A model generated the notes under the pieces. It saw only the letters and a program-made list of their open reading frames with translations, was not told the origin of the DNA and ran no database searches. A stretch of 64,000 nucleotides of DNA from Alloscardovia omnicolens DSM 21503 (GTDB lineage Bacteria; Actinomycetota; Actinomycetes; Actinomycetales; Bifidobacteriaceae). Within the stretch, counting starts at the first letter, position 1. Each line of letters opens with the position of its first letter. The DNA lies in contig NZ_ATVB01000001.1 of NCBI RefSeq assembly GCF_000420505.1, forward strand, positions 124,001 to 188,000, written 5' to 3'. Of this stretch, positions 27,235-32,748 are shown piece after piece. Position numbers and translations under genes: made by a program.

Positions 27235-28224
27235 CTATAAACCGAGGAATTGCACAGCTTGAGGCAATAAGGAAATACTTATATCGTTCGATTTATAAGC
27301 TACTTCCCCATCTGTTTGAACCCATACAGGAACATTCATTGTAATGCGATATACTCGCCCACGCGCCATATGAACGCCGCGAGAGCTAGTATGATGTCCC
27401 TTCATTGCGCGCGGAATAAGATGCACAAGCTCAGTTTTCTTAATCCCCTGAGCAATACATGAATCAAGCTGTCCATCATACAGCGATGCTTGCGGACAGA
27501 ATTTAAATCCACCGCCCTCATACGGTTCATTCATAACCGCCACAAAAAGCGTATCGTCATATCTACAAACTTCTCCATCAATATCCACAGATACAGAAAA
27601 TCCTCGATGCTTAAAAAATCCCAGCAGTGCAGCGCATAAATAGGCAAGCTGAGAAAGATGTAATCGCGATAACCTATCGCTCACATCCGAATGCAAAACT
27701 TTTACACACACATCTGCATCAAAACCAATACCCGCAGCATTATTGAAATACCATTGCTTTGCGGCAATATCCGGCGCTCTGCCTTGATCATCAAACACAT
27801 ATTATAGGTGAGAACACCCATATCTAGTGAAAGCACTCGACTTACATCAGTAATGCGCTCAATAATATCTTCATACGTGCCAGAAATAGAATTCGAATGC
27901 ACAAAATTATTGCCACTTCCAGCAGGAATAAGACCAAGATATGTTTTATTAAAATTCATTATGCCATTCACAGCAACATTAAGCGTTCCATCACCCCCCC
28001 CCGATAATAATATAAACATTTTCAGCATCATCGCTAACATCGCTGAGATCTCGCACAATATCATGTACAACATACGTGCGCGTTGGAAAATGAACAGAAT
28101 GCTCTATTCCCTTTGCGCGCAAAATTGACTGCACTTCACGCCATGCTTTAAGCGCACAACCCCCCCCATAGGGATTAACTACGCAATGAAATCGCATACG
28201 AGAATCCTTCTTCTTCATTGGCAT
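27235..28224 (-). pseudogene. Diacylglycerol kinase-like lipid kinase, broken by two frameshifts
   Basis: The family is the DagK/YegS catalytic domain, which phosphorylates diacylglycerol or related lipids. Reading from 28224, NPYGGG with a following Trp and the segment ending YIIIGGG are in one frame. The continuation GGGDGTLNVAVNGI and LGLIPAGSGNNF is in a second frame, and NNAAGIGFDADV plus the C-terminal part is in a third. The first shift lies in a run of nine G (sense strand, 28000-28008), where eight would restore the frame. The second lies near 27799-27806. Another run of eight G (28160-28167) encodes the first glycine motif in frame. Full length would be ~330 residues. Sequencing error at the homopolymer could explain the first shift but not the second. 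Confidence 0.75.
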
Positions 28225-28633: not shown

Positions 28634-28694
28634 TGCTCACGCCCCCCACCTCAACCACTCGAATCCTCCGCCGCACCTCCCACAGCTTGCATAT

Positions 28695-28722
28695 AAAGAA
28701 TTTTTTATATAAAATATTCTTT
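28695..28722 (+). promoter_or_regulatory. ArsR-type operator abutting the start codon
   Basis: A 28-bp AT-only-centred palindrome with arms beginning AAAGAAT and ending ATTCTTT has only two mismatched pairs. It ends directly at the ATG of the ArsR gene, and there is no ribosome-binding site between. It resembles SmtB/ArsR 12-2-12 operators in form. The TATAAA/TATAAAAT boxes inside it could serve as -10 sequence, so the transcript may be leaderless. Confidence 0.65.
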
Positions 28723-29118
28723 ATGAGTACGGTGGATAACAACGCACCACGTGAGGCTTTGAACAATGCTACGAACAACGCTACAGACAGCGCATTAAAC
28801 GCTGCACATGAAGCCACCCCATCGCAAGCTAAGCCTTGGGAAATGCAATATGCAGCGTCAACGGAGCTCTTCTCAGCTTTATCGCATGCAGCACGTGTTG
28901 CAATCTGCCATTTTCTCATTGGACAACCACTTACTGTACGTGAGATTCAAGAAAAACTTGGTCTTTCCCAGCCACTTGTTTCTCACCACCTCATGATTTT
29001 GCGCAATGCTCATATTGTGTCTGCACAATCTCATGGTAGAACAACTCAATATTCCATTTCGGACATGCATATTCGCCATATTGTGGTGGATGTATATGCC
29101 CACACAAAGGAGATATAA
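28723..29118 (+). CDS. ArsR/SmtB-family metal-sensing repressor
   Basis: This 131-residue winged helix protein has an Asn/Ala/Thr-rich head (about 1-35), then the HTH core with SALSHAARVAICHFLIGQPLTVRE and IQEKLGLSQPLVSHHLMILRNA, and the wing SHGRTTQYSI. The last helix has HIRHIVVDVYAHTKE, whose His residues could form an alpha5 metal site as in SmtB/CzrA sensors. Cys94-type ELCVCDL sites are absent, which fits zinc or nickel better than arsenic. I place the start at the ATG directly after the palindrome; the longer frame from 28687 would run through the operator. It overlaps the ribosome site of the His/Cys-rich gene 2 bp downstream. Confidence 0.85.
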   Translation: MSTVDNNAPREALNNATNNATDSALNAAHEATPSQAKPWEMQYAASTELFSALSHAARVAICHFLIGQPLTVREIQEKLGLSQPLVSHHLMILRNAHIVSAQSHGRTTQYSISDMHIRHIVVDVYAHTKEI

Positions 29119-29120
29119 CA

Positions 29121-29453
29121 ATGACAGACCTTAAGCACACAATTGCAGAAGATCACGCACACACTCACGGACCTGCCTGCGGACACGAAGCTATTATCCA
29201 CTTAGATCATGTAGATTATCTGCATAACGGGCATGTTCATCACGAGCATGATGGTCATTACGATGAGTGTTCCCACTGCTCATGCGAGCATTGCACGGAT
29301 TCCTGTGCAACATGCACCTGCGCAGATTGCACATGTGAAAACTGCAATCACACCACGTGCTCTTGCGAGCATTGCTCCGATTCTTGCGCACATTGCACTT
29401 GCGAAGACTGCACCTGCGCAACATGCAAGCATCCTCATACCTTAGCTGCCTAA
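29121..29453 (+). CDS. His/Cys-rich metallothionein-like protein
   Basis: This 110-residue protein contains 20 Cys and 20 His. The N-terminal half (1-50) resembles a small actinobacterial His-rich family (GPACGHEAIIHLDHVDYLHNGHVHH). The C-terminal half is two 27-residue tandem repeats (53-79 and 80-106) with identical Cys spacing at offsets 0, 2, 5, 9, 12, 14, 17, 19 and 22, and 19 of 27 residues in common. CxC and CxxC spacing like this is a metallothionein trait. There are no membrane segments or signal peptide. AAGGAG, inside the end of the ArsR gene, precedes the ATG, so the pair is an operon. Zinc or copper storage or detoxification is inferred. The fusion of the two halves is not one I recognise. 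Confidence 0.85.
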   Translation: MTDLKHTIAEDHAHTHGPACGHEAIIHLDHVDYLHNGHVHHEHDGHYDECSHCSCEHCTDSCATCTCADCTCENCNHTTCSCEHCSDSCAHCTCEDCTCATCKHPHTLAA

Positions 29454-29726: not shown

Positions 29727-30647
29727 ATGAGCGATACTCATTCACGCACTGTGCAATCAGATACAGCACACAGCAAGTTTCGCATGATTTTAGTCGGTTT
29801 CGCTTTTCTTCTGTAGTTATCAGTAGCTATTCTTTTCGTTCTTCGTTTTCAAGAGCATATAGTGTGGGCAAGTGGCGTACTTCAACTGCTCGCACTTATT
29901 GTTACCTTCTTTATTGTTGGCTCAGATTCAAATTCGGCATTCAAAATCACATAGCTCGTTTTTATTGGTCTCACCCCTGTGGTTGGTTTAATCGTTTACC
30001 TTCTTTTAGGAAATCCTAATGCCACACGCATAAGCAAGAAAGCATTCAATAAGAATCATCGCACGCTTATGCAGTTCCTTCAGCGGTCAAACGCCACTCT
30101 CACACAACTCGATAAAACGGATAAAGGCATTGCTAATCAGTTCCGTTATCTGCAAAAACAAGCCTCCTACCCTACGTATACTCATACAGACGTGCAGTTT
30201 TACAGCGACGCAAGTGACGGTTTAGAAGCCCAGTTACGGGATTTAGATAAAGCAGAACATTTTATTTTTATGGATTATCATGCCATTGAGGACGGCGAGT
30301 CTTTCCAACGTAGTTCCCGTATTCTTGCACACAAAGCCCAGCAAGGCGTTGAAGTACGTCTTATGTATGACGATGTTGGATCAGCCAGTTTTATCAATCG
30401 CTCTTTCATAAAAAAGATGCGCTCGCTGGGCATTCAATGCAAAGTATTTAATCCTTTACTGCCTTTCTTAAATATTTTCGTTAATAACCGCGATCATCGC
30501 AAAATTACCGTTATCGATGGCCGTGTCGGTTTTACTGGCGGTTATAACCTCGCGAACGAATATTTTAATATTGATAGTCCGTACGGTCATTGGAAAGACA
30601 CAGGTCTTCGTCTTGAAGGAGATGCCGTTCAAAGCAAGTTCAGCTGA
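29727..30647 (+). pseudogene. Cardiolipin synthase, broken by two amber codons and 3' truncated
   Basis: The frame starts at an ATG with GAAGGAG upstream. It encodes two N-terminal membrane helices, interrupted by in-frame TAG codons at 29814-29816 and 29952-29954. The second lies where related enzymes have Trp, so TGG-to-TAG is likely. The soluble part carries SSRILAHKAQQGVEVRLMYDDVGS and one HKD motif in NRDHRKITVIDGRVGFTGGYN. The second phospholipase D domain is missing: sequence stops at GDAV and a stop follows where DUF1054 coding on the other strand begins. About 306 codons of an expected ~490 remain. A shorter translated product from 29979 has no obvious ribosome site. Confidence 0.8.
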
Positions 30648-31166: not shown

Positions 31167-31278
31167 ACTTCTGTTTGTATGCGAGCACGCACCGCACACA
31201 GAACACAGCAGCCTAGACATGGTGAAGCTCACATTTTTGAGTTTGGTGTGGTTCTACTGACTCTGTTAAGCTAATCGC

Positions 31279-31344
31279 GTTATGTAACTGACGGAAGTAG
31301 ATTAACCACAGGGAGTATAACCGTAGGAAGCCGACCGTCTGGGC
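31279..31344 (+). promoter_or_regulatory. ZTP (pfl) riboswitch aptamer
   Basis: GTTAT (31279-31283) pairs with ATAAC (31317-31321) as P1. The conserved CCACAGGGAG segment, and ACCGTCTGGGC at 31334-31344, match the pfl/ZTP motif. CCGTC (31335-31339) is complementary to GACGG (31290-31294), the pseudoknot expected in the motif. The known family senses ZMP/ZTP, signs of folate shortage. A terminator and an OFA-type transporter follow. Confidence 0.8.
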
Positions 31345-31345
31345 G

Positions 31346-31377
31346 AAAGAATCCCAGCACGTTTGGGCTTCTTTTTT
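31346..31377 (+). terminator. Riboswitch-associated terminator
   Basis: An 11-bp stem with one mismatch (31346-31356 with 31364-31374) and a run of T to 31377 lies two bases after the aptamer. CTGGG of the aptamer (31339-31343) can also pair with CCCAG (31353-31357) of this stem, a plausible switching interaction. Confidence 0.75.
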
Positions 31378-31404
31378 GTTGTCTATTTACGCGAGGCCAA
31401 CTCT

Positions 31405-32748
31405 GTGAAAAACAAATGGACAGTGGCTGCTATTCCAGCCCTTCTGATTCACGTAAGTATTGGTACCGTTTACTGCTGGTCTTCTTTTAGCGAAAGTTTA
31501 GCTGCCGAAGTGGGAGTTCCTACCGCTACCCTCGGCTGGGCATTTAGTTTAGCTATTTCCTTCCTTGGCATGTCTGCAGCTTTTGCTGGTTCTTTTGTGG
31601 AGCATAATATTCACAAGGCATCTCTTACCTCCTGTATTTGCTTTACTATCGGCATGATTGGTACGGGCGTTACCGCTCAGTTTACGCATCAGCTCGGTTC
31701 TACTTTAAGCTTGATTTTGATTTACCTCTTCTACGGTGCGATTATGGGCGTCGGTTTGGGTATTGGCTACATTACTCCTGTGAAAACCTTGATGCTGTGG
31801 TTCAAAGATAATAAGGGGTTGGGCACCGGTATTTCCATTATGGGTTTCGGTTTAGCAAAAGCTATTGCTAGCCCAGTGATGAACTATCTGCAGGATGCTG
31901 TGGGCTTGGCTACGATGTTCTACATTTTGAGTGTCGTGTATTTTGTAATGATGATGATTGGTCATTTCCTTCTTGAAAAGCCAGCTGGATGGACCGAAGA
32001 TCCGAATGCAAGCACTAAGCCAGACTTCTCTATCTTTAAGAACAAGCAATTCGTAGGTATTTGGATTATGTTCTATTTGAATATTACCTGCGGTTTAGCT
32101 TTGATTTCTTATGAGAAGTCCATCTTGAAGGTGATGGGCGTAGGTCTTGCGGTTATTTCCTTTGTGCAGATGCTTACTGCTGCCAGCAACGCTTTGGGTC
32201 GTTTGGGCTATTCAATGGTCAGCGATTATTTGAAGGATCGCAACACTGTTTACAAGATCATTTTCGCATCTTGCGTTCTGCTGTGCTTGGCAACCTTCAT
32301 GTTTAAGGGTGTAAACGCTGACCTTGTTGTGCTTGTTGTTGCTCTGCTTCTGGTTATTAACGCGGGCTATGGCGGCGGTTTCAGCACGCTTCCGGCATTA
32401 CTTTCCAGCCGCTTCGGTATGGATAAGATTTCCGGCATTCACGGCGTAGCTCTGTCTGCATGGGCTTTCGCAGGTTTGACCGGTAACCAGATTACTGCGG
32501 CTGTTTTGAGCGCAACTGGTTCCTATAACCTCGTCTTCCTTATTTTGGCAGCGCTCTATGGTGTAGCGTTAATTATCTCCTACACCATGGTTAAGCCTCA
32601 AAATAAGCTCTTTATGGCTCTTAAGCGTCGTTCTGGTTTGACTGGGACGGCGCTTCAAGTTTTATTTGAGACATCGCGTGGTGAGCCGCATGTGTGGGTG
32701 GCGTGCTCACATCATTGGAATCATCATCGTCGCTCTCGTTCAAAATAA
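31405..32748 (+). CDS. OFA-family MFS transporter (oxalate/formate antiporter-like)
   Basis: This 447-residue major facilitator has 12 membrane segments. IHVSIGTVYCWSSFSESLA and LGWAFSLAISFLGMSAAFAG near the N-terminus, and GVGLGIGYITPVKTLMLWFKDNKGLGTG between helices 3 and 4, are typical of the OFA family. I place the start at a GTG at 31405 behind GCGAGG; a longer frame would start within the terminator. The substrate is unknown; the ZTP riboswitch suggests a one-carbon or related compound. The last ~40 residues lack membrane segments and are antisense to the K+ channel gene, so the native end may have been lost. Confidence 0.82.
   Translation: MKNKWTVAAIPALLIHVSIGTVYCWSSFSESLAAEVGVPTATLGWAFSLAISFLGMSAAFAGSFVEHNIHKASLTSCICFTIGMIGTGVTAQFTHQLGSTLSLILIYLFYGAIMGVGLGIGYITPVKTLMLWFKDNKGLGTGISIMGFGLAKAIASPVMNYLQDAVGLATMFYILSVVYFVMMMIGHFLLEKPAGWTEDPNASTKPDFSIFKNKQFVGIWIMFYLNITCGLALISYEKSILKVMGVGLAVISFVQMLTAASNALGRLGYSMVSDYLKDRNTVYKIIFASCVLLCLATFMFKGVNADLVVLVVALLLVINAGYGGGFSTLPALLSSRFGMDKISGIHGVALSAWAFAGLTGNQITAAVLSATGSYNLVFLILAALYGVALIISYTMVKPQNKLFMALKRRSGLTGTALQVLFETSRGEPHVWVACSHHWNHHRRSRSK

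Follow-up and report, generated by a model that had tools for sequence, protein, structure and literature searches.

A putative zinc-excess operon encoding an ArsR/SmtB-type repressor and an unannotated metallothionein-like His/Cys-rich protein in Alloscardovia omnicolens

The window, i.e., the whole stretch of 64,000 nucleotides of Alloscardovia omnicolens DSM 21503 DNA that was analysed, contains a two-gene operon which is likely to be a self-contained zinc-excess response resembling cyanobacterial smtB-smtA, with a small His/Cys-rich protein acting as a zinc sponge. The pairing of an ArsR-type zinc sensor with a metallothionein-like protein is of a known kind; what is new here is that the protein matches no family, its architecture, and the unannotated module at its head. 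A 2020 study noted that, until then, work on biological function had covered just two bacterial metallothioneins (PMC7387436). If our reading is correct, another metallothionein family, unrelated in sequence, would be present in skin, oral and soil actinobacteria, encoded by a two-gene cassette that brings its own predicted zinc sensor and operator. Moreover, the head module would be tied to zinc ABC importers in about one-third of the sampled actinomycete genomes, and an unannotated protein family would gain a testable function through that link.

The His/Cys-rich protein and its relatives

The two genes are adjacent on the forward strand and separated by 2 nt, as seen in the sequence and in the list of open reading frames. 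The first (28723..29118, 131 aa) encodes an arsR/smtB-type metalloregulator, as indicated by NF033788, PF01022 and its ligand columns. The second (29121..29453) encodes a metallothionein-like protein of 110 aa, and is preceded by the Shine-Dalgarno sequence AAGGAG (29107..29112, forward strand), 8 nt 5' of its ATG. An earlier reading of the sequence alone had described an ArsR-type regulator in an operon with a 110-residue protein in which 40 residues are Cys or His. Both open reading frames are indeed present, the former matching NF033788 and PF01022, and we counted 20 Cys and 20 His in the product of the latter. Within the window, the sequence and the list of reading frames revealed no transporter near the operon.

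The His/Cys-rich protein starts with a His-rich N-module (residues 1-50; 29121..29270, forward strand; alignments A1 and A2) of the pattern ...HxHGPxCGHxAxxHxDHVDYxHxGHxHxxHxGHYDEC. It is followed by two Cys units encoded on the same strand, unit 1 (C53-H77; 29277..29351), with 9 Cys and 1 His, and unit 2 (C80-H104; 29358..29432), spaced as unit 1. The register of each unit is C-x-C-x2-C-x3-C-x2-C-x-C-x2-C-x-C-x2-C-x-H, and two copies of it appeared in 0 of 20,000 shuffles of the protein's tail. At the DNA level, the units correspond to a repeat of 2 x 74 nt, 77% identical and 81 nt, or 27 codons, apart. The description of the C-terminal half as two 27-residue repeats with exactly the same Cys spacing was thus confirmed by the identical register and the 81-nt period. 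Likeness of the two units at non-Cys positions is often higher within one protein than between the same unit of different species (e.g., 0.87 in L002 and L024 versus between-species means of 0.50-0.54). This pattern is suggestive of Cys units that were duplicated repeatedly or underwent gene conversion.

In alignments, full-length relatives are 63-74% identical to the His/Cys-rich protein, and all 20 Cys are kept in the fused relatives, with the exception of C. namnetense, which has a one-unit version. Judging from this identity and Cys conservation, the reading frame is that of a real protein. It has the sequence features of a metallothionein: it is small, carries conserved CXC/CXXC arrays, and is devoid of a long hydrophobic segment. 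Sequence searches of Pfam, NCBIfam, PHROGs and the PDB returned nothing meaningful for it; the sole weak PDB match, Synaptotagmin-like protein 4 (E 0.73), was rejected as a match of Cys composition. None of the 13 fused proteins matched Pfam at E values up to 1, including PF02069, which represents BmtA/SmtA metallothioneins. The AlphaFold model of the protein (pLDDT 48) shows no interpretable fold. The motif HVDYLH was not found in the open-access papers searched, and searches of the open-access literature on metallothionein or ArsR in the host genera yielded no description of the protein. The view that no described protein is known with this combination therefore agrees with the lack of a family match in Pfam and NCBIfam and with the open-access literature. 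However, the combination is not peculiar to this genome, being instead that of a small conserved fusion family.

We found the full-length fusion in Actinomyces, Cutibacterium, Acidipropionibacterium, Nocardioides and their relatives, with about 25 distinct loci in total. Its carriers include Actinomyces israelii, A. gerencseriae, Actinomyces sp. AC-20-1, Cutibacterium avidum, Cutibacterium sp., Acidipropionibacterium timonense, several Nocardioides, another member of Nocardioidaceae, and further genomes. In 19 of the 25 distinct fused loci, the gene immediately 5' of the fusion, on the same strand, is arsR; the remaining six (L021, L022, L023, L028, L043 and L085) have no adjacent arsR. The sequence-only reading had proposed that the two halves be searched for separately. 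Of 395 class genomes searched in this way, 118 had the His-rich N-module and 14 had the Cys unit, and in these genomes every Cys match abutted an N-module match, that is, the Cys unit was seen only as part of a fusion. The N-module aligns with its family over a motif of about 40 residues, HxHGxxCGHxxxxHxDHxDYxHxGHxHxxHxxHYDE (alignment A1), its own genome giving a match at 2.8e-19. The assignment of the N-terminal half to a small actinobacterial His-rich family was confirmed, although this widespread module is not confined to actinobacteria: Neisseria, Rappaport israeli and a planctomycete carry it too.

The regulator and its putative operator

The regulator is a member of the ArsR/SmtB family, scoring 74.2 bits with NF033788 (cut-off 55) and 44.8 with PF01022 (cut-off 22). 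Its closest solved structures, by both sequence and fold, are Mycobacterium smegmatis SmtB (8qkf, 39% identity), CzrA and cyanobacterial SmtB. The predicted alpha5 ligands D114, H116, H127 and E130 form the pattern D-x-H-x10-H-x2-E, which is kept in 19 of 19 regulators encoded beside fusions and equals the published alpha5 motif of SmtB proteins, DXHX10HXXE(H) (PMC9241078). Residues 115-130 form a helix in the predicted structure. The regulator also has an N-terminal extension of about 40 residues with NNAT-like repeats (window 28723-28840), which its relatives lack.

A putative promoter (28687..28715, forward strand) consists of TTGCAT (28687-28692) and TAAAAT (28710-28715), separated by 17 nt. 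TTGCAT matches the sigma-70 consensus at only 3 of 6 positions, and a generic promoter/terminator scan returned nothing at the operon. The same geometry is repeated upstream of arsR in L024, L025, L027, L029 and L058-L060, with TTGACA in many cases, as well as upstream of the arsR-less L028 gene. Two starts are conceivable for the arsR frame, TTG 28687, selected by the ORF finder, and ATG 28723, both leading to the end at 29118. The latter, with a 131-aa product translated from a leaderless mRNA, is more likely, because TTG 28687 lies within the promoter-like element and ATG 28723 follows TAAAAT by 7 nt, a spacing shared by relatives. The start of the locus at 28695 in the sequence-only reading falls inside the operator/promoter rather than inside a gene.

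The putative ArsR operator is a 32-bp palindrome (28693..28724, no strand assigned) in which the arms ATAAAGAATTTTTTAT and ATAAAATATTCTTTAT meet without a spacer and 15 of 16 arm positions pair. It is located between the -35 element and the start codon, covering the -10 box and the start; in silico, an inverted-repeat operator thus overlaps the regulator's own promoter. When the 160 bp around the palindrome were shuffled 1000 times (first-order Markov), a score as high was reached once. As no second copy with fewer than 3 mismatches was found genome-wide, the regulator probably controls only the arsR-His/Cys operon.

We also scanned for Zur boxes with the Streptomyces Zur motif tGaNNatSatNNtCa (PMC5472717). 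In Cutibacterium, Acidipropionibacterium and Nocardioides litoris (L024, L026, L029, L030 and L031), Zur-box-like sites with 1-2 mismatches precede arsR by 63-90 nt. Equally good sites occurred in 0-3 of 200 shuffles for most of these loci, and in 12 of 200 for C. namnetense. In L024 and L031, the site directly precedes the promoter, as in the zinc-induced Streptomyces zitB gene, which zinc-loaded Zur activates from a site just upstream of the promoter (PMC5472717). Dual Zur/SmtB control is possible at the five loci. The arsR-less genes of A. israelii and A. gerencseriae likewise have Zur-box-like sites in front of them. The same scan found no such site in the window.

Zinc as the probable metal

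Apart from the fusion, the N-module is encountered on its own and in tandem copies, and it also forms the C-terminal tail of ABC-3 permeases (PF00950), whose best NCBIfam matches include AztB and ZnuB, at scores under the equivalog cut-offs. At the Propionimicrobium lymphophilum locus L038, genes for a ZnuA-like binding protein, an ATPase, a permease with the module and a FUR-family regulator follow one another. The gene order is znuC, znuB, arsR, the His/Cys gene and a FUR-family gene in L049, and znuC, znuB, the His/Cys gene and a FUR-like frame, without an adjacent arsR, in L043. Two regulators, of Rhodococcus rhodnii (L037:4668-5267) and Kibdelosporangium aridum (L033:4281-4883), are ArsR proteins with two C-terminal His-rich modules; they do not align at the alpha5 ligands, as if the module tail might be their sensing part.

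The occurrence of the N-module as a tail of zinc-ABC permeases, the SmtB-type alpha5 pattern, and the Zur-box-like sites of some relatives point to zinc as the metal handled by the operon. A zinc or copper sponge under its own sensor had been suggested before, the link to metal being drawn from composition and from the regulator. With the evidence from other genomes, this link can be sharpened to zinc, as we infer, and copper becomes less likely. Tentatively, and with less confidence than we have in the zinc sponge, the 40-residue His-rich module could be a general mix-and-match unit with which actinobacteria, and some other bacteria, handle zinc, placed as a zinc-importer tail, as an ArsR tail, as a free single or tandem protein, and at the N-terminus of what would be a new metallothionein family. 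Within the fusion, it would catch labile or incoming zinc and pass it to the Cys clusters.

In the zinc-excess response that we propose, an SmtB-type repressor dimer bound to the palindrome at 28693-28724 would block the promoter of its own operon when metal is not in excess. A rise in cytosolic Zn(II) would fill the alpha5 site, with D114 and H116 coming from one subunit and H127 and E130 from the other. The zinc-loaded repressor would then leave the DNA, allowing for co-production of the repressor and the His/Cys-rich protein, which would act as a cytosolic zinc buffer. Each 27-residue unit, with its 9 Cys and 1 His, could hold a cluster of perhaps 3-4 metal ions, consistent with the Zn3Cys9His and Cd4Cys9His clusters of Pseudomonas metallothionein (PMC7387436), which match this ligand set. 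The His-rich head would provide weaker, faster-exchanging sites, and may make contact with incoming zinc.

The regulator is the only NF033788 (ArsR-type metalloregulator) match in its genome, in which neither Fur-family nor CDF (PF01545) matches were detected, while control genomes gave matches. In a host free of such matches, the operon may be a main zinc-excess response. The genome also encodes two P1B ATPases, a CopA-type copper ATPase (L106) and one of the Cd/Zn subfamily with a TPC motif (L105); given the presence of the latter, the sponge need not be the only zinc defence.

The genomic ties between the N-module and uptake permeases are compatible with zinc acquisition as well as with detoxification. 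Accordingly, the protein could be imagined as a cytosolic acceptor, chaperone or store for ABC-imported zinc, with a head that docks to the ZnuB tail or replaces it, so that scarce zinc is banked rather than detoxified. The many genomes in which zinc-type permeases end in the His-rich head, the placement of the His/Cys gene between znuB and a FUR-family frame in L043 and L049, and the Zur-box-like sites (1-2 mismatches) at the arsR-less Actinomyces loci L021 and L023 would all be in line with this. However, an alpha5-type ArsR, which is expected to derepress with metal excess, governs 19 of the 25 fused loci, and the operon in the window is not near a transporter and belongs to a genome without a Zur candidate. 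We regard acquisition or hand-off as the chief rival reading, but an unlikely one.

Somewhat less probable still is that the ArsR protein senses, and the metallothionein binds, a metal other than zinc (Cd, Ni/Co or Cu). Cd and Cu(I) are also ligated by Cys-rich units; the Ni sensor NmtR has the alpha5 motif as well (PMC9241078), so that the motif by itself does not fix the metal and Ni/Co sensing is conceivable; and the HxHDCHH tail that several relatives' regulators carry in addition could supply more ligands. In contrast, the regulator in the window stops right after the alpha5 motif, the genomic links of the N-module are to zinc-type ABC permeases and FUR genes, and copper is served by the CopA-type ATPase encoded elsewhere in the genome. 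A redox function, with the protein as a thiol buffer or oxidant sink and the ArsR protein as a sensor of redox or sulfur species, is very improbable: the family does include the sulfide sensors SqrR and BigR, which are also among the structural neighbours of the regulator, but the latter retains all four alpha5 metal ligands and has a single Cys, thiol-sensor families score far below their cut-offs with it, and CXC/CXXC arrays with conserved His are typical of metal clusters.

Relation to known systems

The probable zinc-excess operon is most similar to smtB-smtA of Synechococcus and azuR-nmtA of Anabaena, in which, as here, an ArsR/SmtB repressor with the alpha5 pattern is paired with a small protein rich in Cys and His, whose clusters comprise 9 Cys + His. 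AzuR and NmtA are an ArsR-type zinc sensor and the metallothionein tied to it (PMC8790569). The His/Cys-rich protein is unrelated in sequence to those of either system, matching neither PF02069 nor another Pfam family. Its two tandem 27-residue Cys units and separate His-rich head are unlike smtA and nmtA, and its repressor gene is upstream in the same orientation, whereas smtA and smtB are divergent (PMC7387436). Mycobacterial SmtB (Rv2358, BigR4; 8qkf), the closest solved relative of the regulator, has the same alpha5 pattern. Its gene forms a smtB-zur operon, i.e., it is encoded with zinc genes (PMC6103462); its partner is zur, in contrast to the His/Cys-rich protein here.

The His-rich PflQ2 metallothionein of Pseudomonas is bacterial and has a cluster of 9 Cys + 1 His (PMC7387436), the ligand set of each Cys unit of our protein, but its operon lacks a metal-responsive regulator (PMC7387436), and it has neither tandem units nor the N-module. 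To our knowledge, MymT of M. tuberculosis has no His-rich head. Like the proposed sponge described here, MymT is an actinobacterial cytosolic Cys-rich metal binder; it was reported as a copper metallothionein with its own sequence motif (PMC10612145). The His/Cys-rich protein matches no NCBIfam or Pfam entry. The His-rich tails of actinobacterial AztB/ZnuB-type permeases are homologous to the N-module, yet they are tails of membrane transporters and come without Cys units.

Origin of the cassette and its surroundings

Among 189 genomes of the family, the N-module was found in one, that of the source itself, and in the sister species G003, the tRNA and cardiolipin-synthase genes that flank the operon are about 0.67 kb apart with no related reading frame between them. 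The cassette was thus probably gained by horizontal transfer beside the tRNA gene, and other actinobacteria are its probable source. Its G+C content (47% versus 45% in the window) shows no sharp anomaly, and in a 13-row tree, the window sequence is on a long, unplaced branch that indicates no donor. A phage or plasmid origin was rejected, as tblastn searches gave no matches in the phage or plasmid collections.

The cardiolipin-synthase-like gene (window 29728-30647, forward strand) looks decayed: TAG codons interrupt the frame near 29815 and 29952, and it ends prematurely at 30647; the corresponding reading frames in the sister genomes G001 and G003 are intact (513-533 aa). On the other side, a diacylglycerol-kinase-like gene (window 27235-28224, reverse strand), which is a single reading frame of 323-339 aa in sister species, is in pieces around long poly-C runs near 27996 and 28160, reflecting either sequencing errors or slippage-type variation. 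Additionally, a ZMP/ZTP riboswitch (RF01750, 43.6 bits, cut-off 39) was detected at window 31274-31351 on the forward strand, directly upstream of an MFS-type transporter reading frame (31363-32748).
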